Source of the DNA: Candidatus Woesearchaeota archaeon
GTDB taxonomy: Archaea; Nanobdellota; Nanobdellia; Woesearchaeales; SM23-78
Length of the DNA: 35,456 nt
NCBI GenBank assembly: GCA_016932315.1
Contig: JAFGDD010000004.1
Span: forward strand, 1-35,456
Reading direction: 5' to 3'
In this document: piece after piece, positions 1,472 to 30,070 of the stretch
How the letters are laid out: every line of letters begins with the position of its first letter
How positions within the stretch are numbered: position 1 is the first letter of the stretch
The notes under the pieces: model-generated
Seen by the model: the letters and a program-made list of their open reading frames with translations, nothing else
The model's database searches: none
What the model was told of the DNA's origin: nothing
Position numbers and translations under genes: made by a program

Positions 1472-2542
1472 ATGAAAAATTCGTTTTTGTTGTTAATGAT
1501 TGCATTCGCAGTGTTGATTGTCAGTTCATTGTCAGTTAGCGCCCAGACTTGCATGATTAGCACTGGCGTCGGTCATCCTTTGCTGCCTGACACTGATTGC
1601 GACAGAGTTATTGATATGGAGGATAATTGCCCTTTCATCACTAATCCTATGCAGAGAGATGCTGATGGCAATGGTTTGGGTGATGCTTGCGATTTGTACA
1701 TTGAGAGCATTGGCACGAGCCCTTCTGATTTTGTTTATAATGGCAGGGCTTTTAACACAATCGCTACTTTATACAATCACAGGGATTATAATTTGAGGAA
1801 TGTTAAAGTAAGAGTCATCATGCCTGAGCTGGGCATTGAATCTGTGCAGTACATCGATAATATTGAAGTTTGCAGTTCAGAAACAATCCAATTCTTCCTG
1901 AGAGCTCCTGCTTGTGTTCAAAACGGAGATTACAGGATTATTGTAGAAGCCAGCTTCATGAACATGTTCGGTGACGAGGAAATCATTCCAGGCATTACCA
2001 GCATCAGGATGGTTCCTGACCAGTACTGCCAAAGCATTCTGAATAATAACCAAATAATTGGCAATACTATAATTGATGTCATGGAGATTCAGGATGTTTA
2101 CAAAGGTTATGAAGCAGTCTTTCCAGTAAGGATTTCGAATACTGAAAGAATTGACAAGGATTATGTATTCACAATTACTGGCCTTGAAGGCTGGGGTAGT
2201 GCTAGGATTGAGCCTGGCAGCGTAGTCATTGTTCCTGAAGAATCTATGACCAGCGTTAATATTTTTGTGAAAGCAAATGATGATGCACCTGCTTCATGCC
2301 TTGGCTATGATTGCGGCTCAAAGCCTTTCCTGGTGACGGTTCAGAGCGGCAAGGAAGTCCAGAGCTTCGTGCTCATTGCAAATGTCAAGGAGTCCGGAAA
2401 GAATGATAACTCATTCCTACTGCTCTTCAGCCTGAAAGTGCTCTTGATAGGCGGATTGGTTCTCCTGCTAATCATAGCATTGATTATAGGCATGGTTAAA
2501 TTCATGGCGAGCGCAAGAAGCGATAACATGGAATACTATTAA
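1472..2542 (+). CDS. Membrane-anchored surface protein with thrombospondin type 3 repeat
   Basis: A 356-residue surface protein. A signal peptide covers residues 1-24, with the likely cut at VSA-Q. Residues about 40-76 form a Ca2+-binding thrombospondin type 3 repeat with the expected alternating Asp residues, DNC and GDACD motifs. Two beta-rich Ig-like segments with Cys pairs follow. The C-terminus has one transmembrane helix (about 318-342) and a short tail ending EYY. The ATG is preceded by AAAGGTGGT. The gene follows the beta-barrel-like gene closely, so the two are probably co-transcribed. The role is probably cell-envelope or adhesion-related; the exact function is unknown. Confidence 0.8.
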   Translation: MKNSFLLLMIAFAVLIVSSLSVSAQTCMISTGVGHPLLPDTDCDRVIDMEDNCPFITNPMQRDADGNGLGDACDLYIESIGTSPSDFVYNGRAFNTIATLYNHRDYNLRNVKVRVIMPELGIESVQYIDNIEVCSSETIQFFLRAPACVQNGDYRIIVEASFMNMFGDEEIIPGITSIRMVPDQYCQSILNNNQIIGNTIIDVMEIQDVYKGYEAVFPVRISNTERIDKDYVFTITGLEGWGSARIEPGSVVIVPEESMTSVNIFVKANDDAPASCLGYDCGSKPFLVTVQSGKEVQSFVLIANVKESGKNDNSFLLLFSLKVLLIGGLVLLLIIALIIGMVKFMASARSDNMEYY

Positions 2543-2622
2543 TCATCAAATTCTTTTGACTTTTACAATATTTTCTTAATTTTTTTCATTAACCACTCTA
2601 GAATGGTTATCAAGCGAAAGCT

Positions 2623-2632
2623 TTAAATATAA
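2623..2632 (+). promoter_or_regulatory. TATA box for the 205-aa anchored protein
   Basis: CTTTAAATAT lies about 21-30 bases before the ATG at 2653, in an otherwise AT-rich 110-base gap. No ribosome site is seen, which agrees with a leaderless start and a separate transcription unit from the gene before. Confidence 0.55.
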
Positions 2633-2652
2633 AATATCTCTCTCTTAAGGGC

Positions 2653-3270
2653 ATGAAAATGAACAAGCACTTAATAATAGGATTATTCTTGATAAGCGCA
2701 ATGATCTTGCTCAGCAACATTGTCCTGGCTGAGACTGCAGAGATGAAGGATACGGGCATCGATTATGTCCCTTACAGGGAAATTGTTGTTAATGAGCCCG
2801 GAGCGGTTTACCAGATAAAAATAACCAATTACGCCAACGATGAGCGCTACTATGAAATAATACCTAATTCTGAAATCATAAGGAGCATAGGCACTTACAG
2901 GATCGATCCGTCTGACAAGCTCAATCTTGATTCAAGCGAAGAAGCAACTGTTTATCTTTACATCTCTGTCGAAAAGCCTCTCAGCAGCAGGGCGGCCATC
3001 CCAGTCATAATAAAATCAGGATTAACAGAGACCACAATCAACCTGGTAGTCAGACCAATAGGCCCATTAATGCCGGCAAAGCCGCAAGTTGATGCGAGAA
3101 CCAAGCTAATAACAGCAGTCTTCAAGATAATAATCAGCATCATCCTCATAATTGTGATAGTGATCGCCATCATCCTCGGCTTCAGGAGAATGAGAAAGAG
3201 AAAAAGCGAAGAAACAGATGAAGGCTTGAAGCCAGAATTCGAAGAGGAAGAAATAGACACTTACTATTAA
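2653..3270 (+). CDS. Small anchored surface protein, Ig-like domain
   Basis: A 205-residue protein with a signal peptide at residues 1-26 (cut near VLA-E). One beta-sandwich domain at about 30-135 resembles the NEW3/COG1470-type Ig-like folds common in archaeal surface proteins. A transmembrane helix at about 152-177 is followed by a basic then acidic cytoplasmic tail ending DTYY. Its topology and its Tyr-Tyr tail match the neighbours at 1472 and 3332. A second ATG two codons downstream is also possible. It is probably a cell-surface structural or adhesion component; no specific function can be assigned. Confidence 0.75.
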   Translation: MKMNKHLIIGLFLISAMILLSNIVLAETAEMKDTGIDYVPYREIVVNEPGAVYQIKITNYANDERYYEIIPNSEIIRSIGTYRIDPSDKLNLDSSEEATVYLYISVEKPLSSRAAIPVIIKSGLTETTINLVVRPIGPLMPAKPQVDARTKLITAVFKIIISIILIIVIVIAIILGFRRMRKRKSEETDEGLKPEFEEEEIDTYY

Positions 3271-3331
3271 TAGTCACAAATAAACTTAAACTAAAAACTG
3301 ATTCGTCAAAAAAGGTTAGGGGGAGTCTGAC

Positions 3332-5731
3332 ATGAAAAAAATTGGAATTAAATGGATTGTATTTTTAGTAATGCTGGCAGTACTAATAAGTTCTGCGCAG
3401 GCAGCACTGATAGTCAACAAGGTAACAGACGAGTTCTCACTGGAAAGCCCGTACCCAACAGATAACCTAAAGGCCTGCCAGTGCAGCCAAAGGACTGATG
3501 TGCTCGAAGTCAAGAACATTGGAGACTTCAAAGCATTGTTCAAAGTTCATATAGACTCCCCAATAAAAGGATTAATCACCTTAAGCGACGATACTTTTGA
3601 ACTCGAGCCTGGCCAGGCAACCAAGGTTTATGTATACATTGAAGTACCATGCGACCAGCCACTAGAAACATTCTATGTTGCCAATGTATGCACTAATTAC
3701 GGCAGAAGCAAGGAAATAGTAAAGCAAGTAGTTTCAAAGCAGTGTCAGAACATAAAGTACACCAGTAAAGTACTGAATGATAAGATATTGCCTGGTGACA
3801 CAGTAACTATACAGTTCGACATACAGAACGTAGCAGATTTTAACGACAATTTCAAAATAATCCCTAAAGCATATGGTGACTTCACAGTAATGAGCGAAGA
3901 GTCAGTAAGCCTTGCGCCAGACCAAACCAAGATAATCTACTTATACGTAAAATACCCCTTATCATATTACGGCGACATTACATATCCATTCACAATAAGC
4001 TCTGAGAAAGCAGGCAATGCTGTGAAGGGAGTGCAAAGCTTCAGCATTGAGAGAGACTATGACTTCACAATGAAGCCAGAAGCACTAGAGCTTCATGCAT
4101 GCGAAGACGTCACCACAGAAGTGCCAATCACCATTTCAAATCTTGCAAAGACACCAAATAAGTACTCACTGCACTTAACAGCTCCTGCATTTGCAAAGCT
4201 AAGCCAGGAAGAGCTTGAATTAAGCGCAGAAGAAAAAGATGAAGTAACATTAACCATCAAGCCAACACAAAAAGATGTTGGGGAATACAACCTCTTGCTA
4301 AGCGCAGCCACAGAGTACGGAGACATGCTAAAAGACAAGAGCTTCAAGCTTGTGGTTGATGACTGCTTTGACCTCAAAGCCTCGCTTGAAGGCTGGAGCC
4401 AGATAACAGATAAAGGATGCTATGGAGAAAAAACATTCACACTAAACATAAGGAATGACGGAAAATACGAGGAAGCATACGAGATAATGATTGACAGCCC
4501 AGGCTGGGTAAGCATAAAAGAAGAAGACAAATTTGTAAGAATTAAGCCAAGCCAAAACATCAACATACCAGTAAAGCTAAGCTTCCCTAACGTCGATGCC
4601 AAGCAAACCTCATTCATAATAGTGAAGCAGCTAAGAGAACCATATCAGGCTCAGGAAATAAAAGTGGAGCTTGAAAGCTACAGCCAAAGAAGCTGCCACA
4701 ACATAGAATTATTGCAGGACAAGTACAGGATTAACTATGAAACCAAGAGCATACCAATGCTGCTCCAAAGCACAGGAATCAAAGCAGGAAAATACAAGCT
4801 TCAGCTCGGAGAAATGGAATCAAGGTTTGTCTACTTAGACCAAGACACTATGGAATTCGAGCCAGGAGAAACCAAGGTATTGCACATCTACCCGAAGAAT
4901 TACAGCAGCTACAACCAAGGAACCTACCTTAACAGGCTAACCCTCACCATTAGTTTGGTGGATGAGAACCTTAATATTGACTATAACAAGCAATTCTGGG
5001 TGGTGCTCAGGGACAAGAACTTCCTGACCAAAGCAATTGATTACATAGCACGCTTCAACTATTCCAGGATTGGCTGGTGCGGACTAGTCACACTCATACT
5101 CGCAGGCATTACAGCCTTGCTGGTAATAGCAGTGGTTTACATGAGAGTAAAGAAGAACTTGAAGATTAAGAGAATAAAAGCCAGCTGCATGAAGAAGATA
5201 AAAATAGTGAACATAGCACTGATCTTCCTCTTAATAATAAGCATCCTTGCACTAATCCTCATAGGCAACCCTAACACTGACAAATTCTATGAGCAAAGCC
5301 AGCAAGTTAACTCGACACTTTATCATGAGTGGAAAGAAAACATTCCTTACCAACTGGACTTGAACAAGTACTTTACAGACCCAGACACTGACGTTCTAAG
5401 CTACACCTCAAGCCAGCCAGACCATGTAGATGTGAAGATTGAAGGCAACATCGCAACATTAACTCCAGAGCACAACTGGGCAGGAGAGGAAAAGATAGTT
5501 TTCACAGCCAACGATGACAAAGGAGGAATAGCAGACAGCCCAATCATGACCTTGAAAGTGCTTAAGAGGCAGCCAATCGGGCCAATGGCTTACTGGAACA
5601 CTTACTGCAAGCACATCAACATAGTGCTATTCATCATCCTTGTGCTGCTGGTATTATTGTGCCTTGACATTATAGAAGAGAAAGGCTACAACTACTACAA
5701 CCCGCAGAAGAACAAGAACAACAGGAAATAA
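3332..5731 (+). CDS. Large multi-domain Ig-like surface protein with three membrane helices
   Basis: A 799-residue surface protein. After a signal peptide (residues 1-25) it has about five repeated Ig-like beta-sandwich domains of roughly 100-110 residues, several with paired Cys residues. Two membrane helices lie near 583-606 and 625-648. A cadherin-like domain (about 655-750) carries the pattern DPDTDVLSYT and a closing NDDKGGIAD. A third helix at about 762-782 precedes a basic tail with the motif NYYNPQ. This puts both beta-rich parts outside the cell. The ATG follows a GGGGGAG ribosome site. It is the largest of three anchored proteins with Tyr-rich tails here, so a shared envelope or S-layer assembly is plausible but inferred. 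Confidence 0.8.
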   Translation: MKKIGIKWIVFLVMLAVLISSAQAALIVNKVTDEFSLESPYPTDNLKACQCSQRTDVLEVKNIGDFKALFKVHIDSPIKGLITLSDDTFELEPGQATKVYVYIEVPCDQPLETFYVANVCTNYGRSKEIVKQVVSKQCQNIKYTSKVLNDKILPGDTVTIQFDIQNVADFNDNFKIIPKAYGDFTVMSEESVSLAPDQTKIIYLYVKYPLSYYGDITYPFTISSEKAGNAVKGVQSFSIERDYDFTMKPEALELHACEDVTTEVPITISNLAKTPNKYSLHLTAPAFAKLSQEELELSAEEKDEVTLTIKPTQKDVGEYNLLLSAATEYGDMLKDKSFKLVVDDCFDLKASLEGWSQITDKGCYGEKTFTLNIRNDGKYEEAYEIMIDSPGWVSIKEEDKFVRIKPSQNINIPVKLSFPNVDAKQTSFIIVKQLREPYQAQEIKVELESYSQRSCHNIELLQDKYRINYETKSIPMLLQSTGIKAGKYKLQLGEMESRFVYLDQDTMEFEPGETKVLHIYPKNYSSYNQGTYLNRLTLTISLVDENLNIDYNKQFWVVLRDKNFLTKAIDYIARFNYSRIGWCGLVTLILAGITALLVIAVVYMRVKKNLKIKRIKASCMKKIKIVNIALIFLLIISILALILIGNPNTDKFYEQSQQVNSTLYHEWKENIPYQLDLNKYFTDPDTDVLSYTSSQPDHVDVKIEGNIATLTPEHNWAGEEKIVFTANDDKGGIADSPIMTLKVLKRQPIGPMAYWNTYCKHINIVLFIILVLLVLLCLDIIEEKGYNYYNPQKNKNNRK

Positions 5732-17626: not shown

Positions 17627-17651
17627 ATGGGTTCAAATCCCATCCGGCCCA
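17627..17651 (+). repeat. Left copy of tRNA 3'-end direct repeat (inside tRNA-Phe)
   Basis: This 25-base T-arm plus acceptor end of tRNA-Phe recurs at 18393-18417 with 21 of 25 bases identical, in the same orientation, 766 bases away. The pair brackets the LAGLIDADG gene in the manner of attachment sites at a tRNA gene. Confidence 0.6.
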
Positions 17652-18298
17652 CTTATTATATTTAGCAAACGTTGCTTTTTGTAAGGATTTGAAGAACCTA
17701 TTTCTTCAGCATATTTCTTAATTAATTTCTTCTGATTTATTCTAATGCAATGTGTTATAGAATGAAATCCTCGAATATCATCATATTCATTCACATAATA
17801 TGCAACAAAATAACCTTTGTTCTCCAAAAACTCCTTCACAGCCAAAATAATGTTTTTATTCTTCAATGCCAAGCTTATGCTGTGCTGACCTCTTGTTCTA
17901 ACTATCATTGATCCGTCAGTATCAAACAATCCTCGAATAAAAGAGATATAAAATGAGTCGTCAGTAGTTATCCATTCAGGAATTGACAGGTTAATTTTCT
18001 TACCGGCAGTTATTCCTTTTTCTATAAGAAACATAAAAAGTTCCTTTGAACGTAATTTGCTCATCAGAGATTTTTGATCTTGACGCACATAAATGTGAGG
18101 TTCTGCATTAAACAAAAAATGAAAAAGTCTTTTAATATAATCAGAATGATATTGAAAATCATTTTGACTATGCCCTGCTATTGCAATAAGATGCTCTTTT
18201 TTGCTCTGATAAAAATTTACGCAACCATCCCCAAATAAGATGCCGATAAGTTCAGCTAATTCAGACGAGTTCCCCTCAGGAAGAAATACTTTAAGCAT
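17633..18298 (-). CDS. LAGLIDADG homing endonuclease-like protein
   Basis: A 221-residue protein with two LAGLIDADG helices: ELAELIGILFGDG (residues 13-25) and FIRGLFDTDGS (120-130). Both carry the acidic residue (D24; D126/D128) needed for metal-dependent DNA cutting. The length and two motifs fit a monomeric homing endonuclease; intron-encoded maturases share the fold. It is free-standing, with no splicing domain, and antisense to tRNA-Phe. Its stop codon lies in the tRNA T-loop, so its last residues (GPDGI) are coded by the complement of the tRNA 3' end. TATA-like TTAAATA around 18321-18327 lies just upstream of ATG 18298. It is more AT-rich than most neighbours, consistent with mobility. 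Confidence 0.88.
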   Translation of the reverse strand: MLKVFLPEGNSSELAELIGILFGDGCVNFYQSKKEHLIAIAGHSQNDFQYHSDYIKRLFHFLFNAEPHIYVRQDQKSLMSKLRSKELFMFLIEKGITAGKKINLSIPEWITTDDSFYISFIRGLFDTDGSMIVRTRGQHSISLALKNKNIILAVKEFLENKGYFVAYYVNEYDDIRGFHSITHCIRINQKKLIKKYAEEIGSSNPYKKQRLLNIISGPDGI

Positions 18299-19263: not shown

Positions 19264-21522
19264 TCATCCAGACGCCGTAAAGCTGCTCAGTATCGATCCT
19301 GCTACTACGCTGAATAGTATTGTTACTGCCAGTGTGATGAGCGTGTATGTTATTGCTGTCTTTATTAGGTTCTTTCCAATTATGAATCTCTCGCTGAGCT
19401 TGTCGCTGCCGTTCTCTATGCCGTTAATAAGAACTGATAAAATATATGTTATTTGCACAACGTACAATCCTACTATTACTTGGAAATAAAATGTTGGTAT
19501 GCCTGTTCCGAACATGCCCAGCAAGCCTGCCTGGCTTATGTTGGCTTCTCCTGCTTCTGTCGACAATTCTGACAAGCGCATGGAAAGGCTTCCGAGTATC
19601 TGGGTTATCATTCCTGTTATTCCGACGACTATGCCTGCAATTGCCGGCGTAAGGAAGCTTATCTGGCTTTTCATGCTGCTAACAATATCTGCCATCAGGT
19701 CTTTCAGCCTTTCATCAACTCTGTGAATTTGTTTTATGTACTCTGCAACATTAATCACTGCCTGGCTGGCTATCATTGGCCCTTTTTTGCTGCTCTCCAC
19801 AAGCACTTTCATGCTGCTCTCAATAAGATTTGAAGGGTAATACACGAGTGCCCCTCTTTTCTCATCAAATATTGCCTGCTCCACACTCATGCCTAGCTTG
19901 GAAATATTTACGCTCACCAAGTCAAAGAACTTGCCGCTAAGAGTGCCTTCCATTACCTCTGCTACTTTTCCAAATGCTATTTCTGCTGGCAATCCATCTC
20001 CTAAACGATTTCCGAGCTGGAATAATGCAGATGCAAATTCTTGTTCAAGAGCCTTGGCTTGCTCCCTTATCTTTATTACGTTCTTGCTCCTGAGATGAAA
20101 ATACATGCCTATGCCTATGCCGAATGCAAGTATTATAAAGAAGCTTAACAGCGTGGCACCCAATCCAAATGGTCCTACTACGCGGCCTGTCTTTTCTCCG
20201 TTTAATATTTCCTCCCTATAACCAAGGAAATAGAAAGTGGCGTCGGGGTCTGTTGGTTTTTCAATCACCTTAACTCCTTCTGAGGTTGTTACGACGTCAA
20301 AATTAGGGTTGGCTGCGTGCAGTATTAGCGGAGTAAATCCTATTATCAGAAATATTACAAGGATGAATGCAGAAATAATCATCGGGCTTATCCTAAGCTC
20401 TGATTTCCCTATCGGAATGATAATATCCCTGTACTTCTTAAGCTCCGGGTTTGTTTCAGAGATATCACTTTCACCATAGCCTGTTGGCCTGGTTGAAAGT
20501 ATATTCCTCGCAAGATAGAATACCATGATAGGCAAGACTAGGTTGTACAATACAAAGAGGTGATACCATTTTACTTCTGGCATGAAGCTAACCATTAATG
20601 GCAGGATAACCAAGCCAAGGATTGGAAGTATTATTCCCATCATGTGCAATGCAGTTAATGGACTTTTAAGGTTGTGAGCATAATGCAGCATCTTCTCATA
20701 AGTTTCATCCAGAATAACGCTTAGAGACTTGTCCAAGGCATCAAGCCTTCTTCCCTCGCTAGTCTCAAAAAGAGAGGATTCAATCAGGTGCATGCTCTCT
20801 ATGAATTCCATGTTGTATTTGCGCCAAGTCTGGAGGTAATCATCCAGGCTTTCTTTTAGAGAATCAAACTTTTCTGACTCCACATTCCACAAAATCTTTT
20901 TTATATCCAGCGCAAGGGGGGGTGTGAGGTGCTCGGATGCAAAGCTTAAAGCCCTCTCAAGGTTGCTTGTGTGCCTCATATAAGTCACGATATAGAAAAC
21001 TGCCAATACCATCTGATTGCTGGCTTTCATCCTCCAATTATTAGCAAGAAAATAAGGAAGCTTTTGCAAGGGAATGATGATTGCCAATGCTGACATGATC
21101 GCAAACAATACAAAGAAAGTGCTTCCGCTGCCAGGCATGAGCAAGGATGGGGTTATGTAGGTTAGGAATATGATTGCTAATGCCAGAATTATAGGCGCCA
21201 GCAATGAAAAGCTCATAACTCCTGTAGGAGTAATATCTAGGTGACATATCTTAATTGCTTCTTCTAGCTCAGGTATTTTTTTCTTGTCAGGCTCGACCTT
21301 AAGTATTTTTTCTGCCCAGTTGCAAGCTTGCTCATAAAGATTTAAGTGATGCGGCATGTTCTCTTTCTGAAAATCAGAGTACTCGCTGGAAGTCAGAGCT
21401 TGGGCTTCTTCTGCACCACCGGCTTTATTTGTTTTCTTCTTGTTATCAGTTTCATTAAAGCTCTTCTTAAGCTCCTTCTCATACTTTGCCCTGATTTCAT
21501 CTATTGTTTTATCATCTGCCAT
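19264..21522 (-). CDS. Type II/IV pilus assembly membrane protein, two GspF domains (TadC/FlaJ-like)
   Basis: A 752-residue inner-membrane platform protein. A charged cytoplasmic N-terminus (about 90 residues) precedes two GspF/T2SSF-type halves. Each half has a helical cytoplasmic domain and pairs of transmembrane helices, with about 9-10 helices in all. Such proteins work with the FlaI/TadA ATPase to extrude pilins, archaellins or adhesins. The frame is open from TTG 21531, but ATG 21522 is preferred: the sequence before it (ATTGATTATC) matches the spacing of other starts here. The gene is downstream of the ATPase in the same direction, separated by 158 bases holding structured element 3. 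Confidence 0.85.
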   Translation of the reverse strand: MADDKTIDEIRAKYEKELKKSFNETDNKKKTNKAGGAEEAQALTSSEYSDFQKENMPHHLNLYEQACNWAEKILKVEPDKKKIPELEEAIKICHLDITPTGVMSFSLLAPIILALAIIFLTYITPSLLMPGSGSTFFVLFAIMSALAIIIPLQKLPYFLANNWRMKASNQMVLAVFYIVTYMRHTSNLERALSFASEHLTPPLALDIKKILWNVESEKFDSLKESLDDYLQTWRKYNMEFIESMHLIESSLFETSEGRRLDALDKSLSVILDETYEKMLHYAHNLKSPLTALHMMGIILPILGLVILPLMVSFMPEVKWYHLFVLYNLVLPIMVFYLARNILSTRPTGYGESDISETNPELKKYRDIIIPIGKSELRISPMIISAFILVIFLIIGFTPLILHAANPNFDVVTTSEGVKVIEKPTDPDATFYFLGYREEILNGEKTGRVVGPFGLGATLLSFFIILAFGIGIGMYFHLRSKNVIKIREQAKALEQEFASALFQLGNRLGDGLPAEIAFGKVAEVMEGTLSGKFFDLVSVNISKLGMSVEQAIFDEKRGALVYYPSNLIESSMKVLVESSKKGPMIASQAVINVAEYIKQIHRVDERLKDLMADIVSSMKSQISFLTPAIAGIVVGITGMITQILGSLSMRLSELSTEAGEANISQAGLLGMFGTGIPTFYFQVIVGLYVVQITYILSVLINGIENGSDKLSERFIIGKNLIKTAITYTLITLAVTILFSVVAGSILSSFTASG

Positions 21523-21563
21523 GATAATCAATTTCTTTTTTAAACTATTTTTTCATCTGAGAA

Positions 21564-21675
21564 AAAAAGTTGCCGCCACCAACCACAGCACTGCAAAAAT
21601 TTTTATAAAAAATTTTAAGGTGCTCGGTGGCTTCGACGGGGGATGCCCCCTGCGGGGTGTCGAAGGCAATTTTTT
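21564..21675. ncRNA. Candidate structured RNA or palindromic element 3, intercistronic
   Basis: AAAAAGTTGCC (21564-21574) pairs with GGCAATTTTTT (21665-21675), with one G-T. Inside are GCCACC/GGTGGC (21575-21580, 21626-21631), AGCAC/GTGCT (21587-21591, 21620-21624), an AAAATTTT palindrome (about 21596-21616) and TTCGAC/GTCGAA (21632-21637, 21659-21664). GGGGG/CCCCC pair at 21638-21650. CCCCTGCGGGGTG is shared with element 2. It fills the gap between the ATPase stop and the GspF-like start, so on the minus-strand transcript it lies just upstream of the latter. Confidence 0.55.
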
Positions 21676-21689
21676 CCAAACAAACATCT

Positions 21690-23999
21690 TTATTTTTCTT
21701 CTTCAGATGATTTGCTCTTCTTTTCCTTTTTAACCTCTTTTTTTAACCATTCATTCCATTCAAAGAATATTCTTTCAGAATCAAGCTTTCCAGTCCTGTC
21801 CTTAATCTTGTCGCAAATGTTGTGGAATTGGTCATTGCATTTGATGACAAACTGGGCTTCTAAGAGATCGAAGTTGTGCTCTTCCTCTGCTATTTTGACT
21901 ATTGCCTCTTTTATCTTGGCTCGCAAAATCACATTATCCCATACAGCGTCCCAGTTGCCAGCCCATTCCTTTACATTGCCTGCAATGGCTTTTAGTATGT
22001 CAATATCGCCGTTAAGCAACTCGTCGCTCGGCTCAAGCTCATCTGTTTTTGAATTATACTTCATCAGGTCAACAAACCCGTGCTCTTTAAGGGGGTCATC
22101 ATCCCATTCCTTTCGAACCTCTGTTATCTGGGTGACTCTTCTCCACTTGTGAAGGCCGTCAGGGCTTCTGATTGGGTTAGCAACAATGATTATGTCTGTG
22201 GCTTTAAAGCTGGTCCTGGGAACTTTTAAGTCATTAACTACTCGGTCAAACACTCCATATGGGCTGTCGCCGTGAATAGTGCCTGCAACCACATTTGCAA
22301 GTGCCCCTACTCTCATGGCTTCGTAGAGGGCAGTTGCTTCTGTGCTTCTAACTTCGCCAACGACAAGCGCAGAATCCCCAAGTCTAAGAGTGGTTCTTAT
22401 GCCTTCGTCAGCAGGCACTTCTGATGTGCCTTTTGAAAGCGCAGATGCTACTTTCATTGGCTGTATGTTATAGCCTAGGCTTCTCAAGCTGTCTGTTGGC
22501 AGCTCAAGCGTATCCTCTATTGTGATAATCCTGTACCTTCGCATTATCTCTATCATAACACTGCCGAGCAGGCTAGTTTTTCCTGCACTCCTTGTTCCGG
22601 CCACGAGCATTGTCCTGTTGCCGTCGACAAGAAAGCTGATGAGCCCTGCTGCTAGGGGGGTAAGCATTTTGTGATGGATGAATAATGGGAGCGTCCATGG
22701 CTTGTCCCTGTGCCTCCTGAAAGCATAGGCTATGCCGAATGGGTTGAGTGGCGGAGCAATCACGCCTACTCTTGCCCTGGCAATGTTAGGAATGCTTATC
22801 TCTGTGTCAAGCACAGGATTGGCTTCATCCAATGGCCTGCCGCTTATCATCCTGAGTTTTGAAGCCCAGCTTTCTGCATCGCTAATGCTAGGTATGATGT
22901 TAGTCTTGCAATCACCATAGTCTTGGTGCACTAGAAAAATTGGTGATTGACCTGCTGGACTGTTGAATGTTATGTCCTGAATTTTTGGATCTGAAAGAAG
23001 GACTTCTATGAGTCCAAAGCCGACAGTGTACCTGATGAGTATCATAGTGAGCTCGTGCAATTCATCATCTGAAAGCTTAACATTCCTATAACCAGCGAGT
23101 TCTTCTATAAGATCGTGGCCAACATTGTAGAATACCTCACGCATCCTCTCAGGATCAATAAATTCCTGGCGCGTTGGCTTGTGCTCTGCAATAATGTTCC
23201 TTGCCAGATCAAGAAGCTCGTAATGCTCTTCTTTAAGCTTGAACTCTGGCGGTGTAATGTGATAGAGGTACTGAACATTCTCGTCGAGAGCAAATATTAC
23301 TATCTCGCTGTCGCCCACATCATAATTATCAAGCTCTGTAGCGCCCTTTGGATAGGTTGCCATGAGCTTGGTAAACATGAAATCAGGCTTTATTGTGGGG
23401 GCGAATATTTTTGAATAAATTGTTCTGTCAAAAGGCTTGAGTCCTGGCAAGAATGGCTTAGCAACCGTTATCAGCCTGGTCTTGTCCAGTTCCTCGATGA
23501 GATATGTTAATAATTTTATGTATATTTTGTGAGAGGCAGCAGCATCACCTGGCTCGGTCTCGAGCAATATTTTTTCGTGGCGAAGAATCCTTGTCAGCTC
23601 GACAAAACATGTGAGCGGATCTTTTTTCAATGTGTCAAAGATTAAGTTGTGGATTTGATTGTAAATCCTGTCGATAACTTTTGGCGGTGCCTTGACTCTC
23701 ATTGACTCATAGCTGAAGAGCTCTTTCTCCTTGATGAGTTTGTTGTAAAGCAAGGCCATATCCATGAGCAGCCTGGTCTGGGCATAATCATACTCATAAT
23801 CCCTTTTCTGGATGAAAACAATCTTAGTGGTTGCCTTGTTCTCTATCAATCGCTCTACAGTGAAAGCCATAAGGCTCGGGTTGTCCTCGAGAGAAGGCAC
23901 AGTAGTAAGGTTCTCGCAGTTAACCTTGAGAATAGTGTCTTCTCCCTCCCTTGTAATCTCAAAAGGAAGACCATCCTTAACCTTTTCAAACAATGCCAA
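21690..23999 (-). CDS. Type II/IV secretion system ATPase (FlaI/TadA/CpaF-like)
   Basis: A 769-residue hexameric secretion ATPase. The first 280 or so residues form an N-terminal domain. The core has Walker A GTRSAGKTS (about 467-475), a Walker B/Asp region with ALVVGEVRSTEA, and a His-box GTIHGDSPYGVFDRV. FlaI proteins are shorter (about 500-550), so the extra N-terminal part is notable. A C-terminal charged helix ends KKSKSSEEEK. The start is TTG 23999 behind GAGGGTGA. It powers assembly with the GspF-like partner. The transcript leader, about 215-265 bases long, contains structured element 4. Confidence 0.9.
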   Translation of the reverse strand: MALFEKVKDGLPFEITREGEDTILKVNCENLTTVPSLEDNPSLMAFTVERLIENKATTKIVFIQKRDYEYDYAQTRLLMDMALLYNKLIKEKELFSYESMRVKAPPKVIDRIYNQIHNLIFDTLKKDPLTCFVELTRILRHEKILLETEPGDAAASHKIYIKLLTYLIEELDKTRLITVAKPFLPGLKPFDRTIYSKIFAPTIKPDFMFTKLMATYPKGATELDNYDVGDSEIVIFALDENVQYLYHITPPEFKLKEEHYELLDLARNIIAEHKPTRQEFIDPERMREVFYNVGHDLIEELAGYRNVKLSDDELHELTMILIRYTVGFGLIEVLLSDPKIQDITFNSPAGQSPIFLVHQDYGDCKTNIIPSISDAESWASKLRMISGRPLDEANPVLDTEISIPNIARARVGVIAPPLNPFGIAYAFRRHRDKPWTLPLFIHHKMLTPLAAGLISFLVDGNRTMLVAGTRSAGKTSLLGSVMIEIMRRYRIITIEDTLELPTDSLRSLGYNIQPMKVASALSKGTSEVPADEGIRTTLRLGDSALVVGEVRSTEATALYEAMRVGALANVVAGTIHGDSPYGVFDRVVNDLKVPRTSFKATDIIIVANPIRSPDGLHKWRRVTQITEVRKEWDDDPLKEHGFVDLMKYNSKTDELEPSDELLNGDIDILKAIAGNVKEWAGNWDAVWDNVILRAKIKEAIVKIAEEEHNFDLLEAQFVIKCNDQFHNICDKIKDRTGKLDSERIFFEWNEWLKKEVKKEKKSKSSEEEK

Positions 24000-24023
24000 G
24001 TTTCACCCTCTTTTTTAGTCGGC

Positions 24024-24233
24024 AAAAAAGTCAGCTCAGCCAACAGCAAGCGCGACGTGGTTTGACTTGTCAAACAAGTTGCACACTGGCTGACGCGGAG
24101 GGGATACAAGCAAAAATCCTTTGAGGATTTTTGATGTGATCAAAACTTTGTTTTGACACGCAAAATACAGGATTTTGCTGTGCCAAAAACTTTGTTTTTG
24201 CCACTCCCTCGGGAAATCGCGGCTGACTTTTTT
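24024..24233. ncRNA. Candidate structured RNA or palindromic element 4, ATPase leader
   Basis: A 12-bp closing stem, AAAAAAGTCAGC (24024-24035) with GCTGACTTTTTT (24222-24233), encloses at least six hairpins. They include TCAGCCA/TGGCTGA (24036-24042, 24087-24093), GTTTGAC-tt-GTCAAAC (24060-24075) and CAAAAATCCT-ttg-AGGATTTTTG (24111-24133). Others are TCAAAAC/GTTTTGA, GCAAAAT/ATTTTGC and CAAAAAC/GTTTTTG between 24139 and 24201. TATA candidates for the minus strand are upstream, so the element is probably transcribed as the 5' leader of the ATPase gene. Its T-runs on both sides also make it a candidate bidirectional terminator or attenuator. Confidence 0.6.
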
Positions 24234-24280
24234 CATAGTTTTTATAGCTTAATCTAACCAGGATTAAATACGAGAAGCAA

Positions 24281-24291
24281 GGTATATAAAT
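24281..24291 (-). promoter_or_regulatory. TATA box for the ATPase/GspF operon
   Basis: On the minus strand ATTTATATACC at 24281-24291 would start transcription near 24260. A second TATA candidate, TATAAAAA, is at about 24238-24245. Either places most of element 4 within the leader. Confidence 0.5.
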
Positions 24292-24401
24292 CTTTTGTTG
24301 ATAGTTAAAAAAATTACAAATTTATTTATTATTTATTCATAATAAAATTATTATATAATCAAAATCCAAAACTATTAAATACTCTAAATAAGTAATCAGG
24401 A

Positions 24402-24845
24402 ATGAAAAAGATGGTTGAGCCTAGTATTTTCCCTGGTCCTGGAACGCCGCCTCCTCCGCCTGCTGCAAAGAAGCAGCCTGTTGATCTGGAGATGTTTGGC
24501 AAGATTTCTAAGAATGTGAACAGCATTGCTGCAAATCTCAGAATTATAGAGGAGAGATTCTCCACTCTGAGAAATAAGAGCCAGATTGTGGAGCAGGGCA
24601 TGATTAGCCTGGAAAAGGATTTGCGAGGCGACATCAAATCTTTATCAGAGGATGTGATTGAACTTAAACACGAATTAGGCGACATCAAAGACAAGCTTAG
24701 GCTTATCAGCGCAGAACTGAATAATCTTGTGAAGAAGAATGAGTTCAAGGTGATGGAGCATTACGTTGACATGTGGCAGCCCATGAATTTTGTCACGAGG
24801 AATGAGCTTAACAGGATTATTGATATGAAGGAGAAGAAAAGCTAG
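24402..24845 (+). CDS. Coiled-coil protein, FlaC/FlaD-like C-terminal motif
   Basis: A 147-residue protein. A proline-rich start (PGTPPPPPA at about 11-19) precedes a long coiled coil (about 28-110). The C-terminal segment has the pattern WQPMNFVTRNELNRII. That end recalls archaellum accessory proteins FlaC/D/E, in which a coiled coil and a short conserved domain contact the motor. The match is from memory, not an alignment. It is divergent from the ATPase gene and upstream of a second coiled-coil gene. ATTAAATACT at about 24372-24381 suits a leaderless ATG at 24402; Met-4 is an alternative start. Confidence 0.7.
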   Translation: MKKMVEPSIFPGPGTPPPPPAAKKQPVDLEMFGKISKNVNSIAANLRIIEERFSTLRNKSQIVEQGMISLEKDLRGDIKSLSEDVIELKHELGDIKDKLRLISAELNNLVKKNEFKVMEHYVDMWQPMNFVTRNELNRIIDMKEKKS

Positions 24846-24923
24846 GCTTCTCCATAACATTTATATACCTGATTTTATAAAAAATGTTTTTGAGGCACAA
24901 AAGAACTGAAAAGAGGTGCTTTA

Positions 24924-25511
24924 TTGGCTTACAAACCAAATGATTTGCCTGTGGACCAGATACGCGCGATGAGGGCGAGAGGATTTGATAATAACCAGAT
25001 AGTACAGGCTTTGCAGAGAAACGGCTATTCTTCGACTCAGATATTTGATGCTCTTAACCAGGCAGACTTGGTGGCAGGCTCTGGAATACCTGAGCCGCCT
25101 GGCTTTGCCCCTGCACCACCTCCTCAAGGTGGCTCTGCTCCGGATGCAGCTCCTGCTGCAGACAGTGGCGCCGGCATAAGCAGCGAAGAAGTCGAGGAAC
25201 TGGTGGAGAGTGTTATTTCTGAGAAGTGGGATGAGCTTTCCAAGGACATTAACAAGATTGTGGAATGGAAGGCTGATGTTGAGACCAAGCTTATCAAGCT
25301 TGACCAGCGCCTTGAATCAATTAAGGATGATTTTGACAAGCTTCACCAGGCAATTATAGGTAAAATCGGCGAGTATGACAAGAATATCCTTGAGGTTGGC
25401 GCAGAAATCAAGGCAATGGAAAAAGTTTTCTCAAAGGTTCTGCCAGTCTTCACTGAGAACGTCAATGAATTAAGCAGGATAACCCAGAACATAAAAAAGA
25501 AGCCTGAATAA
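24924..25511 (+). CDS. UBA-like plus coiled-coil protein of the secretion locus
   Basis: A 195-residue protein. Residues about 5-45 contain two short helical repeats with the pattern RGFDNNQIVQAL then NGYSSTQIFDAL, resembling UBA/CUE-type three-helix folds. A Pro/Ala-rich linker (about 50-78) leads to a long coiled coil (about 85-185). The start is TTG 24924 after GAGGTG. A TATA-like TTTATATAC lies near 24861-24869. It is oriented like the 147-aa coiled-coil gene 78 bases before it, and both probably form a cytoplasmic scaffold for the ATPase, which is inference. Confidence 0.7.
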   Translation: MAYKPNDLPVDQIRAMRARGFDNNQIVQALQRNGYSSTQIFDALNQADLVAGSGIPEPPGFAPAPPPQGGSAPDAAPAADSGAGISSEEVEELVESVISEKWDELSKDINKIVEWKADVETKLIKLDQRLESIKDDFDKLHQAIIGKIGEYDKNILEVGAEIKAMEKVFSKVLPVFTENVNELSRITQNIKKKPE

Positions 25512-25644
25512 AAGAACGGTTTCTTGAAGATGATTTCTATTCCTGTAATTTGTTATTTTATTATTCTTATTTTTATGTTTATTATTTCATTATTCATATT
25601 TTAGGATGTGTTAGAATATATCTAGGATATATCTGTAGCTTATG

Positions 25645-25664
25645 GCTATAGCCTGGGCTATAGC
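25645..25664. terminator. Perfect palindromic hairpin between convergent genes
   Basis: GCTATAGCC-TG-GGCTATAGC forms a 9-bp perfect stem with a 2-base spacer. It overlaps the stop codon of the minus-strand membrane gene (25658) and lies after the AT-rich tail of the plus-strand coiled-coil gene. A 3' end or terminator role is likely. Confidence 0.5.
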
Positions 25665-26263
25665 TTTGTCGCTGTTTTCGTCAGAAAAAGCAGTGCAAAC
25701 GCTGCCATGATGAAAATAAAAAGCATACCCATGACCTTAGGATGCCTCAGTGTGTTAAGAAGATTAGTTGTAAAGCTGGGAGTTGCAGTGCTACTAATCC
25801 CTGTTGGTTGGTACGAACCTACACTGCCTCCTGCAGTATAATTCGCAGAGTTCATATCATTCCTTCCCTTTTCAAGCAATCCCTGACCAAAGGCATTGGC
25901 AAGCCCAAATGCGAGTATTAAGCCTACAAATATAAGTACCCAGGGATGAACATTTGGATCCTTGATTAAATCAAGCATCTCTTTCTCTCCTGCCCCAAAC
26001 ATTCTAACTAAGAACAGGGTGAAGAAGATAAAGATGGCCACTACCATAAACCATGGCACCATAAAGCTGACCATGTTAGTGGCAATCTTAGAAACCAGGA
26101 AAAGCAAGGCAATGAGTAGGGATATAATGGCGTGCAAACCCCTTTTTCCGTCGCCAAAAGGCTTTATGTATTCCATGAGCCCGAATATCACGAGAAATAC
26201 CAGCAAAATGACAAAGACGACTCCGAAATGCTCTAATAACCCTATTTCAAGGAAAGTTGCCAT
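25658..26263 (-). CDS. Small polytopic membrane protein, paralogue 3
   Basis: A 201-residue membrane protein with about five transmembrane helices, the first two in the pattern VVFVILLVFLVIFGLMEY. It shares size, helix layout and the N-terminal 'helix, I-F-G, basic loop' pattern with the two genes upstream (26315 and 26992), so the three are likely tandem paralogues. A Gly/Ser/Thr-rich loop lies at about 140-165. A ribosome site AAAGAGG precedes ATG 26263. It may be a membrane component or pilin-like platform of the adjoining secretion system; no named family is recognised. Confidence 0.7.
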   Translation of the reverse strand: MATFLEIGLLEHFGVVFVILLVFLVIFGLMEYIKPFGDGKRGLHAIISLLIALLFLVSKIATNMVSFMVPWFMVVAIFIFFTLFLVRMFGAGEKEMLDLIKDPNVHPWVLIFVGLILAFGLANAFGQGLLEKGRNDMNSANYTAGGSVGSYQPTGISSTATPSFTTNLLNTLRHPKVMGMLFIFIMAAFALLFLTKTATKL

Positions 26264-26314
26264 TCTCTTTCAAAACCTCTTTGCTAATCAATAAATTTAA
26301 AAAAAAATTTATTA

Positions 26315-26902
26315 TTATTTTTTTGGCTTCATTACCTGATTAAAGCCGTCAGTAAACCTGCGCATGCCCGTAAGCTCTTTCTGCTCCTTTTTATCCTCTT
26401 TGGTTATGAAGTATATGATGATTCCGAAGATTAAAATCATCACAATAAGCGCTTGAAGCTCAGGGTCTTGGAGGAATAACAGCCAGAGCGGCAGTCGAAA
26501 CCAGCCGACGGATGAGCCGAAAATGCCTACGACTGCGATGATTGCAATTATCACTATCCAACCTGATAAAGGCGTTCCTGCAAAGTCGATTTCATTGCCA
26601 AAAACTCCTATTATTAAGAGTAACATAAGGATGGCTACAAGTATTATTGATACTTGAGGCAAAGCAGTGTTAATAACATCCACTGGGTCAAAGTTGAATG
26701 GGTATCTGCCAACAACATGTGGGATGACCACTCCCAATCCCATTACTAAGGCGATTATAACGTTGAAATTCTTTTTTCCTTCTCCAAGTATCTTGGTTTT
26801 CTGCATGGTAGCAAACACTATTGTAAATACTAGGATGAATGGCAGCAGCACGTCTGTAACTCCCCATGCATCAAGCATGACGATAAAGTTTTCAAATATC
26901 AT
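26315..26902 (-). CDS. Small polytopic membrane protein, paralogue 2
   Basis: A 195-residue membrane protein with about five helices. The opening AWGVTDVLLPFILVFTIVFA followed by KTKILG is nearly the same as in the gene at 26992 (GVYDVILPFLLVFTIVFA, KTKIFG), which shows they are paralogues. The last helix ends IIYFITKEDKK, again matching its neighbour's FIFYITKEPGKK. A basic C-terminal tail of about 30 residues is likely cytoplasmic. A strong AAAGGAGG ribosome site precedes ATG 26902. Function is unknown; the location suggests an envelope or secretion role. Confidence 0.75.
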   Translation of the reverse strand: MIFENFIVMLDAWGVTDVLLPFILVFTIVFATMQKTKILGEGKKNFNVIIALVMGLGVVIPHVVGRYPFNFDPVDVINTALPQVSIILVAILMLLLIIGVFGNEIDFAGTPLSGWIVIIAIIAVVGIFGSSVGWFRLPLWLLFLQDPELQALIVMILIFGIIIYFITKEDKKEQKELTGMRRFTDGFNQVMKPKK

Positions 26903-26991
26903 TTTTCATCGGCCTCCTTTTGTTCGCTTATTTTTTATAATCGCCTTTTTTATTTTTAGTTTTTTAGTTTTATTTTTAGTTATTTTAATTT

Positions 26992-27561
26992 TTACTCTTC
27001 TTTTTCTCCTTCCTTTTTCTTACCTGGCTCTTTTGTAATGTAAAATATAAAGCCAACTACTATTATGATCAGCACTAGTGAAGACACTGCTACTGTGTCG
27101 AATTTTTTGAATAAGTAAAAGAAGATGAGGTCTAGCCAGCCCAGGGCGTGCAGGAATATAAGCACGATGCCTACAAATGCTATTATCATGAATGCGGTCT
27201 TCCATTTGCCTTTGAGGAAGAACTCTTCCTTGCCTGTGTGGAAGCTGCCTGCCAGCATGAGGAAGCAGATGATTAAGAGCAATAAGAGCACCATATTAGC
27301 CAGGACTTCATTAATCAAAGCCACGAGTTTGGTTGAGGCGACCACAAAAAAGGCTATGACAAAGGCTGTCATGCCATTCATATTCTTTCTGGTTATTTCC
27401 TTGCCTTCAATTTTTTCTGTGCCAAAAATCTTGGTTTTTTCAAGGATGGCAAACACAATGGTAAATACTAATAAGAAGGGCAGGATTACATCATACACTC
27501 CTAATTTGTCAAAGAAGGCAAGTGCTCCTCTAAATACAGATGGCTCTGGTGTTGTTACCAT
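26992..27561 (-). CDS. Small polytopic membrane protein, paralogue 1
   Basis: A 189-residue membrane protein with about five transmembrane helices, a basic cytoplasmic loop after helix 1-2 (EKTKIFGTEKIEGKEITRK) and a Lys/Glu-rich tail. It is the first of three tandem paralogues. It has its own promoter, CTTTAAATACC in minus orientation at about 27595-27605 inside the end of the upstream gene, and a ribosome site AAGGTGAG before ATG 27561. The three may form one membrane complex. Confidence 0.75.
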   Translation of the reverse strand: MVTTPEPSVFRGALAFFDKLGVYDVILPFLLVFTIVFAILEKTKIFGTEKIEGKEITRKNMNGMTAFVIAFFVVASTKLVALINEVLANMVLLLLLIICFLMLAGSFHTGKEEFFLKGKWKTAFMIIAFVGIVLIFLHALGWLDLIFFYLFKKFDTVAVSSLVLIIIVVGFIFYITKEPGKKKEGEKEE

Positions 27562-27598
27562 ATTATATTCTCACCTTTTTCTCTGGAAGCGTAGGTAT

Positions 27599-28780
27599 TT
27601 AAAGGTTTCGTTCTCTTGATAATCTTCTTTTTCTTAAAATAATCGCGATTATCACACCGCAGATTAACAATAGCAATGAAACAATTATTAATATTAATGC
27701 TGTGCTGGTTGGCGCAATTTCAGGAAAAGCTGTTTTCTCAACAATGCTTACAGGGAAATTATAGCTACGCACCTGGTCTGCATAAGCCAGCTTGACTGTG
27801 AGCGTGTATTCCCCTATGCCCAAGCCTGTTGTGTCAAAGAAGCTGTTAATTGTTTTTTCCTCTCCTGGATTAATGGTGAATAACGGGAATTCACTTTCGA
27901 TATTCTTAATGCTTATTAATCCTGAAGCAGGCAGTTCTGTATTCCAGTCACTGGACACCTTGAAATCTAGCTTGTTGATTTCACCTCTCACAAGCTTCTT
28001 GGGAAAGAGCTCTTTTACCTTAATCACAGGAATGCCTATTGTGAAGTTTGATTCTGTGCTCTTTTCAAATCCATCATAATATGCATTAGCAACAGCTCGA
28101 TAAGCTCCTTTTCTGAGTATTGGGCTTGACTGAGCTCGCGCATTGCCCAAGGTATTCTTTGCGATGCTTATCTCGTTTGTTGAAGTTTTATCCAAGAGCT
28201 CTCCTGCAGGGTTATACAACTCAATGCTTGCTCCTGCTCTCTGAATATCCTCGGAACCAAGGTTGTCAAAAAGCACAGCCATTGGAAGGGGGGTGCCCTC
28301 ATCTACCTCTGTTATCAGCAATGATACGTCAGCGTACTTGGCAGGATAAGGAACGCGTATAGTAATGCGGATTTGCGGAGCAACAAATGCTATAACGCCA
28401 CTTTGATCATTATTCTCAAGTAAAGGAGTCATCTTTACATGACCACTATGCGTTCCAGGGCTCAGCTCAGAAGGAAGCTGAACTATAACTTTGAAAGGAG
28501 TTTTATAATCAGCAGCTTTAACATTAATGACTGGCTCTTGTATGAATATCATATCCTGAATCTCACCTGTAGAGCTAATGCTTACCTGCATATCATTCTG
28601 CTCAGGATTGAGAATGTTCAAATCTAACTCAATAACTTGGTTAGGTTCATATAAAAGGGTTTTAGTTGCAGGGCTTGCTCCTATGCCAGCAGCAATTGCG
28701 AAGTGAAGCAAGAAAATTATTAGTGCTAAGGCTGATTGAACAATAATTTCTTTTCTTGTTTCTTTTCTTGTTTTTTTCAT
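27599..28780 (-). CDS. Anchored surface protein with NEW3/COG1470-like Ig domains
   Basis: A 393-residue protein. A signal peptide or N-terminal anchor at about residues 13-33 precedes three beta-sandwich domains, among them ASPATKTLLYEPNQVIELDLNI. The pattern matches archaeal NEW3/COG1470-like extracellular repeats, as in the proteins at 2653 and 3332. One transmembrane helix (about 358-382) is followed by a short, very basic tail (RKRRLSRERNL). It lies between the small membrane proteins and the glycoprotein at 28838, all on the minus strand. It may be an external subunit of the pilus-like system. Confidence 0.8.
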   Translation of the reverse strand: MKKTRKETRKEIIVQSALALIIFLLHFAIAAGIGASPATKTLLYEPNQVIELDLNILNPEQNDMQVSISSTGEIQDMIFIQEPVINVKAADYKTPFKVIVQLPSELSPGTHSGHVKMTPLLENNDQSGVIAFVAPQIRITIRVPYPAKYADVSLLITEVDEGTPLPMAVLFDNLGSEDIQRAGASIELYNPAGELLDKTSTNEISIAKNTLGNARAQSSPILRKGAYRAVANAYYDGFEKSTESNFTIGIPVIKVKELFPKKLVRGEINKLDFKVSSDWNTELPASGLISIKNIESEFPLFTINPGEEKTINSFFDTTGLGIGEYTLTVKLAYADQVRSYNFPVSIVEKTAFPEIAPTSTALILIIVSLLLLICGVIIAIILRKRRLSRERNL

Positions 28781-28837
28781 CTTTCAATACTCCGCTTATC
28801 TTATTAAATCACATAATTTCTCTCTAACTCAATGTCT

Positions 28838-30070
28838 TTAGCCGTTTCCTGCCTGGCTAGCAGTTATTGTCATTATACTGCTCTTTGATCCGGGCTCTTC
28901 ATCAGGCGGGACAGTAATCTTAATTTCCAAGTCTGCCTGGTCTGCATCATCCTCGTAAGTGAGGTTGCAAATATAATTCGTTGGAGTGGTTGTCAAGTCA
29001 GCAAATGCTGTCTGGGTGCAGCTGGCTGCATAAACACTGGTCTCGTTCTCTGCTGCTGCATATTGATAGTCTGTTGTTTTCTTATTAGTACTTGTGAATA
29101 AGGATGTCGCATTGATTGTCAGGTTAAGAAGCACATTACCATCATTCCTCACAACCAAGGGGTTTGGACTGTTGTCTGTTGTATCGTTGGATGTGCCAAT
29201 AGTAATATCTGCAAAGCTAGTAGAGTTCACAATCACCGTCAGCAGTATTTGACTGTCAATACTGAAATTGAATTGAGTAGCCACAGAGCATTCTTCATAA
29301 CTATCGCAAGCAATAACTGTCCAATTATACGGTGTGTCAACACACAAAGCATCTGTTACAGTGTAGTTGGTAGTTGTTATGTCTTCGCTTATAGCTGTAC
29401 ATGCGCACGTGGCTGATGGAGCGCAACTAATGTTCAAAGTGTAGGTTATGTCATCACCTTCAGCATCTGTTGATGTAGTCCAGTTAAAGTTAGGCTTCCT
29501 CTCAAAAACAGTTGCATTGTTATCAGCAGGATACCATAAAGTAGGGGTTGTTGGCGCTGTGTTGTTCATTCCGCAGCACATGCTCATATTATATTTCGAG
29601 CAGTTCCCGATATGGGCGTTCGTGTTATTAGCTCCTTCGCTATTAGACATGGTGAAAACACAAATTCCTGTTTCACAGTTGCTTGTAGTCGTGAAGCATC
29701 TAATCACTTTCCAAGTGCTGCTAAGGCAGACAGGACCAGGATAATCAGTATCACCAGTAGCATCGCCATGCGCGCTTGTGTTAGCCGATAAGTTCAGCAC
29801 AGTAACATTTCCAGGGCAGGTATCTGTTATGGTTATACTTGTATTGCTATTGTTGCAGCAGAGAGAGTAATTATAATATTTGTAGCTATTGTTTTGCAAG
29901 TGCGCATTCTGAAACCCACCAGTGTCGTTTTGCATGCCGAATAATCTTGCGCCGTTAGTACAGTTACCTTGCATCCAAAAGCACTGAAGGTCATTCTCTG
30001 CATTAACAATTAAGAGGGCAGAAAGTATTGCTGCAAATAAGACCAAAAATATGGCTCCGTACTTCCTCAT
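28838..30070 (-). CDS. Exported Asn-rich glycoprotein-like surface protein
   Basis: A 410-residue exported protein. A signal helix at residues 5-24 is followed by two repeated Cys-rich modules of about 45-50 residues, each ending in NAH...(Y)N(Y/M)S(L/M)CC. A fibronectin-like domain (about 172-270) starts TPTLWYPADN. A C-terminal Ig-like domain ends PGSKSSIMTITAS, with no membrane anchor. There are many N-x-S/T sites, so heavy N-glycosylation is likely. It resembles pilin-like or adhesin-like secreted proteins. The N-terminal RKYGAIFLVLFAAILSALL is class III-pilin-like in shape, but the upstream part lacks an obvious prepilin KG/E cut site. It lies upstream of the 27599 gene in the same direction. 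Confidence 0.8.
   Translation of the reverse strand: MRKYGAIFLVLFAAILSALLIVNAENDLQCFWMQGNCTNGARLFGMQNDTGGFQNAHLQNNSYKYYNYSLCCNNSNTSITITDTCPGNVTVLNLSANTSAHGDATGDTDYPGPVCLSSTWKVIRCFTTTSNCETGICVFTMSNSEGANNTNAHIGNCSKYNMSMCCGMNNTAPTTPTLWYPADNNATVFERKPNFNWTTSTDAEGDDITYTLNISCAPSATCACTAISEDITTTNYTVTDALCVDTPYNWTVIACDSYEECSVATQFNFSIDSQILLTVIVNSTSFADITIGTSNDTTDNSPNPLVVRNDGNVLLNLTINATSLFTSTNKKTTDYQYAAAENETSVYAASCTQTAFADLTTTPTNYICNLTYEDDADQADLEIKITVPPDEEPGSKSSIMTITASQAGNG

Follow-up and report, generated by a model that had tools for sequence, protein, structure and literature searches.

The window analysed here, comprising the opening 35,456 bases of contig C14 (JAFGDD010000004.1) from the genome of a Candidatus Woesearchaeota archaeon (1.34 Mb, 91% complete), carries a seven-gene cassette at positions 19264-27561. 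Its genes encode, in order, a double GspF-type platform protein (GspF), a long secretion ATPase, two coiled-coil proteins (cc1 and cc2) and three small membrane proteins (M3, M2 and M1) (Table 1). The genes for cc1 and cc2 lie on the + strand, divergent from the other cassette genes, all of which are on the - strand. The original prediction, made from the letters of the window, was right that the locus has two coiled-coil proteins but had them joined with the motor genes; being divergent, they are therefore not joined with the rest in one operon. The open-access literature that was searched yielded no account of the cassette or of M1-M3. Judging from sequence and gene order, we propose that the cassette is probably the membrane motor of an archaeal type IV filament machine of an undescribed kind, a candidate system that extends across Nanobdellota, a large phylum whose very small members mostly depend on hosts.

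Table 1. Cassette genes and the two adjoining genes for exported proteins (window coordinates; aa, amino acids; TM, transmembrane segment)
Feature	Position	Strand	Length (aa)	Basis or characteristic
GspF/TadC-type double platform protein	19264..21531	-	755 (752 from the ATG at 21522)	predicted structure
FlaI/TadA-type secretion ATPase	21690..23999	-	769	profile matches, motifs, tree
cc1, cytoplasmic coiled-coil protein	24402..24845	+	147	C-terminal motif EKYIxxWxPxxFVTxxEV
cc2, coiled-coil protein	24924..25511	+	195	two short N-terminal helical UBA-like repeats
M3, five-TM membrane protein	25658..26263	-	201	position-specific orthologous clade
M2, five-TM membrane protein	26315..26902	-	195	AlphaFold2 (AF2) model, pLDDT 85
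M1, five-TM membrane protein	26992..27561	-	189	position-specific orthologous clade
Exported protein, signal peptide and C-terminal TM	27599..28780	-	393	genus-only
Exported protein with signal peptide	28838..30070	-	410	genus-only

The cassette is widespread and its layout is stable. In a survey of 279 genomes spread over Nanobdellota, made on draft genomes with simple calling of open reading frames (ORFs), the ATPase was found in 266 and the M family in 269, usually in three copies per genome. Seven genomes lacked both, three lacked M only and six the ATPase only; this pattern would fit a joint unit, although it was discarded as proof of one, as linked genes jointly missing from drafts give a trivial explanation. 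Gene order was read around the ATPase in 72 genomes, where many incomplete loci stop at a contig border. In 65 of the 72 loci GspF lies behind the ATPase and shares its strand; cc1 is divergent in 62 and cc2 in 60, exactly three M genes stand beside the ATPase in 46, and the full cassette is present in 44. None of the genes flanking it in the window turns up in more than 15 of these loci, and the pair of exported proteins turns up in three, so that the cassette has been held together amid rearrangement. The recurrence of gene content and order across dozens of family-level groups is not due to chance.

In Nanobdella aerobiophila (G150), G123, G274, G042, G230, G169 and G270 the cassette is split up, and its pieces persist elsewhere in the genome as sub-clusters. 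N. aerobiophila, for example, has GspF, ATPase (G150:C1:438862-441102), cc1 and cc2 at one site and a tandem M triplet (G150:C1:608970-610682) at another, and the break falls between cc1 and cc2 in G169 and between the ATPase and cc1 in G270. Genomes with M genes unlinked from the ATPase still have a tandem M triplet elsewhere. The original prediction would have failed had the small membrane genes been missing near this ATPase in relatives, and this check came out in its favour. Its suggestion that the locus may be a distinct surface machine of this lineage is thus well supported, both by this phylum-wide cassette and by the position of its ATPase in the tree described below.

The ATPase is the most conserved part of the cassette: an alignment of 31 divergent members gives a mean column identity of 59% and shows conserved Walker A and Walker B motifs and a conserved His box. 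Its original description as a long FlaI/TadA-like enzyme proved accurate. The protein matches PF00437 (T2SSE) with 46.7 bits, over the cut-off of 24.9, as befits the ATPase of a type IV filament system; its best curated models are FlaI (NCBIfam; 111.7 bits, E 4e-32, far below that model's own cut-off of 550) and TadA, and the nearest solved structures by sequence are Archaeoglobus GspE, CpaF and FlaI. Of 39 relatives, near and far, 38 have an orthologue, in some cases as a fragment; full-length orthologues are 54-83% identical, compared with about 30% for other FlaI-type ATPases encoded in those genomes. Named relatives come from Woesearchaeota, Pacearchaeota and Nanoarchaeota, all within Nanobdellota. 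Among the best 80 loci in a scan of named genomes, every one was assigned to this phylum by title or inference except a single 3.3-kb contig (L173; JAQTRG010000061.1, 3316 bases), which was binned as a Paceibacterota bacterium, carries the archaeal ATPase and is probably mis-binned.

The genome of the window also contains two ordinary archaeal pilus loci (L056 and L057). Each of them encodes its own ATPase, about 500 aa long, along with two GspF-type proteins and class III pilins. In the tree, the window ATPase family, together with some close paralogues, is split from the ATPases of these two loci by long branches with 100% support. One such paralogue, in L208, adjoins with its GspF two prepilin-like genes, which suggests that the branch to which the window ATPase belongs serves prepilins. 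A second related ATPase-GspF pair occurs in L201, L202, L203, L207 and L208 and has no M genes beside it; its neighbours in L201, L203 and L208 are single-TM or class III genes, and it is perhaps a sister system. Two ATPases of the cassette family, L049:3513-7304 (G003) and L068:8533-12519 (G013), carry about 500 extra residues after GEVRS in the Walker B region. Both inserts begin with S, that of L049 closes with HN before T, and they are probable inteins; very long open frames in G088, G107 and G137 suggest that there are more. Inteins occur at active sites of conserved genes, and their presence would fit the ATPase as an important enzyme.

The GspF protein shows 45% mean column identity over 40 homologues, and its recognition by sequence is weak: Pfam T2SSF is found in 11 of the 40 (best E 0.0012), and the window protein itself falls below the cut-off. 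The predicted structure (pLDDT 82) supports the assignment, its domains matching the cytoplasmic domains of OutF/EpsF (Foldseek probability 1.00, TM-score 0.75, root-mean-square deviation 2.9). The modelled fold therefore backs the double GspF protein that had been read from the sequence, and with it a putative platform of the type IV filament superfamily. For the coiled-coil proteins the early reading fared less well. The C-terminal motif of cc1 is conserved; a FlaC/D-like end had been suggested for this protein, yet neither FlaC nor FlaD appears among the Pfam matches of the window protein (E up to 1) or the 25 commonest families of its 54 homologues, and with no FlaC/D/E match in Pfam an archaellum-like reading of cc1 was abandoned. 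The two short helical repeats of cc2 have a marginal likeness to UBA domains: UBA_3 matches 7 of the 48 members, with E 0.0008 at best, and the window protein is below the cut-off.

The three tandem paralogous membrane proteins at 25658-27561 are those originally described. Five hydrophobic segments are found in most homologues of M1, M2 and M3, and sequences group by their position in the triplet, with 48 of 50, 49 of 56 and 53 of 56 falling in the M1, M2 and M3 clades, respectively. M1, M2 and M3 are three distinct orthologous subunits, older than the diversification of the class. M2 and its homologues match no Pfam family above the cut-off, M2 has no convincing relative in the PDB by sequence, and its AF2 model finds no fold match there. 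The M proteins were considered as pilins and rejected, given their five TM segments and lack of a class III signal. The two canonical pilus loci of the genome contain no counterpart of M1-M3. In many loci outside the taxonomic order of the window, a conserved protein of about 95 aa, PRC-barrel-like by eye, directly follows M1 (L081-L101), and beyond this small gene lie divergent genes that resemble, again by eye, a TraB/PrgY-type protein and a site-2-protease-like membrane protein.

None of the ORFs in the window satisfies the class III signal rule, and the earlier statement that the window has no clear prepilin or prepilin peptidase stands. A Peptidase_A24 protein is encoded elsewhere in the genome (G000:C19:40996-41340; 58.6 bits against a cut-off of 26.5), providing the processing enzyme expected of a type IV filament system; as 268 of the 279 phylum genomes have a prepilin peptidase, its presence or absence was uninformative as a discriminating test. 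The search for prepilins elsewhere, which the original prediction had called for, was more revealing. Directly behind GspF and on the same strand, 14 genomes of about 12 families carry a gene of a family that we call P. Its proteins combine a class III-like signal of the KKG type with a single hydrophobic segment and a domain that contains Cys and the motif CW-x-M-x-G-x-G. Among 66 loci, about 20, belonging to many families, have either P or another class III gene at this position, and in G187 (L241) the ATPase-GspF pair leads straight into more than ten same-strand class III genes, two of which are P homologues. The argument that a window with no prepilin implies no pilus was dropped once these genes appeared.

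In the taxonomic order of the window, P homologues lie within clusters of prepilin-like genes, and 14 of 15 fetched P loci have no FlaI-type ATPase, the fifteenth being G187. The genome itself has such a cluster about 172 kb from the cassette, consisting of 12 genes on the + strand (C14:207506-220575; L228:9507 to L243:6576) whose products range from 51 to 1480 aa, have class III-like N-termini and in several cases contain small Cys-rich domains. One of them (G000:C14:210455-211288) is a P homologue that joined the iterated P profile; its final E of 1e-31 is inflated, the sequence being already inside the profile. It seems that the prepilins are unlinked in the lineage of the window and operon-linked in relatives, and that the machine is not prepilin-less.

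These parts set the cassette apart from the systems it most resembles. With archaeal type IV pili (PMC4858521, PMC6668835) it shares a VirB11-branch ATPase, a two-domain GspF, class III prepilin-like proteins as candidate substrates and an A24 peptidase in the genome. In contrast to those pili, its ATPase of about 760 aa forms a separate long-branched clade with an extra N-terminal region, it adds three five-TM subunits and two coiled-coil proteins in a fixed set, it is near-universal in one phylum, and its many candidate prepilin-like proteins, some large or Cys-rich, are usually encoded at another locus. The archaellum (ArlB, C/D/E, F, G, H, I and J) likewise has a FlaI-like ATPase, a FlaJ-like double GspF and cytoplasmic coiled-coil proteins by the motor, but cc1 and cc2 do not match FlaC/D/E in Pfam, and neither FlaH, archaellin, FlaF nor FlaG was recognised in the cassette or its near flanks within the window. 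The nearest solved ATPases, those of the Tad/Cpa motor (CpaF; PDB 9e24, 8rkd) and Archaeoglobus GspE (PDB 2oap), align over only about 330-350 residues and belong to systems without M-type subunits, cc1 or cc2; no TadZ or Flp-type pilin was recognised among the window genes, which speaks against a Tad system.

By analogy with known type IV filament machines, a hexamer of the ATPase would act on the cytoplasmic domains of GspF, and ATP turnover would drive the assembly of a filament or pseudopilus by pulling prepilins, both P-type and smaller ones, out of the membrane after their processing by the peptidase. One may guess that M1-M3 ring the platform and form a collar, stator or channel in the membrane, a part absent from ordinary archaeal pili, and that cc1 and cc2 form a cytoplasmic scaffold beneath the ATPase. 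Several points weigh against the proposed filament motor. What M1-M3, cc1 and cc2 might do has been guessed from their topology and linkage. The class III genes were called with a simple motif rule and reading by eye, rather than with a trained predictor. In the lineage of the window, motor and P cluster are linked through homology to relatives and not by position, and N. aerobiophila, despite its motor and M triplet, has no clear P homologue (E 0.03).

Alternatively, the cassette could serve an ordinary archaeal pilus as a spare motor and work on the pilins of the canonical loci. A use of this kind was proposed for nanoarchaeal ATPases in the 2016 census of Makarova et al., which could identify no cognate pilins for them and supposed that they borrow those of other systems (PMC4858521), and the near-universal prepilin peptidase agrees with it. 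However, both canonical loci of the genome own an ATPase, GspF halves and pilins, the window ATPase family is distant from theirs in the tree, the separate prepilin family P is operon-linked to the cassette motor in relatives, and M1-M3 have no counterparts in the two canonical loci. We consider this explanation unlikely. Because the machine is near-universal in a largely host-dependent phylum whose genomes hold other complete pilus loci as well, a distinct and dedicated role appears the better assumption.

A prepilin-independent membrane machine for secretion or for uptake of DNA or lipid, in which M1-M3 form a channel driven by the ATPase and GspF and the prepilins of relatives are incidental, would explain why M1-M3 are as universal as the ATPase. 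It could also draw on N. aerobiophila, which has motor and M triplet without a clear P and in whose genome the Peptidase_A24 model detected nothing. This organism has an archaellum, however (PMC11104419), so that its peptidase must have diverged beyond the reach of the model, and P may have diverged there likewise. Together with the class III genes that stand behind GspF in so many families, this makes a machine without prepilins quite improbable. Relatives of the PRC-barrel fold take part in archaeal division, and the PRC-barrel-like gene after M1 might hint that the cassette works in the envelope or in cell division and makes no surface filament, but that gene is not beside the cassette in the window, a secretion ATPase, GspF and prepilins are no known division parts, and this reading can hardly be right.

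Beyond the cassette, two exported proteins follow M1, as the original prediction stated, but they have no Ig or fibronectin match above the Pfam cut-off, contrary to the type assigned to them there. The pair recurs in just two further loci, which belong to the same genus, and its members were rejected as core parts of the machine on account of this restriction. A row of three more exported-looking proteins with C-terminal hydrophobic segments, possibly surface proteins, is encoded at 1472-5731. Close to the cassette, at 17633-18298, lies a free-standing LAGLIDADG-like homing endonuclease ORF, homologues of which adjoin GspF in L049 and L066 and are found on the same contig in L065.

As to its use, the filament machine may serve contact with the host cell or uptake across the envelope, which is likely, given that in a phylum made up largely of symbionts almost every genome retains it beside ordinary pili; a role in host attachment is plausible, and host contact is the most attractive candidate for a dedicated function. 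Cryo-electron tomography of N. aerobiophila and of strain YN1 revealed an attachment organelle in which a thin tube or filament passes through a portal (PMC11104419, PMC11420986). One may speculate that the machine builds this filament or tube, with P prepilins forming or piloting it and M1-M3 as a basal collar. This possibility is doubtful. The two species imaged belong to the phylum in which the cassette is near-universal, and the organelle includes a filament-like part, but its cone and portal have no assigned proteins.

Nanobdellota are very diverse, their cultivated members live on host archaea, and none of their genes has yet been connected with the attachment structures that cryo-tomography shows. 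With a motor and prepilin families of its own and three undescribed membrane subunits, so widespread and deeply conserved a machine would provide named candidates in the cultivated N. aerobiophila. It would also be a new architecture for the type IV filament superfamily, of which the main text of a 2019 study mentions neither Nanoarchaeota nor Woesearchaeota (PMC6668835), and it may supply prepilins to the ATPase group of the 2016 census, if that nanoarchaeal group is the same family. Should the attachment-organelle reading be true, the cassette would encode the molecular basis of host contact across the whole phylum.

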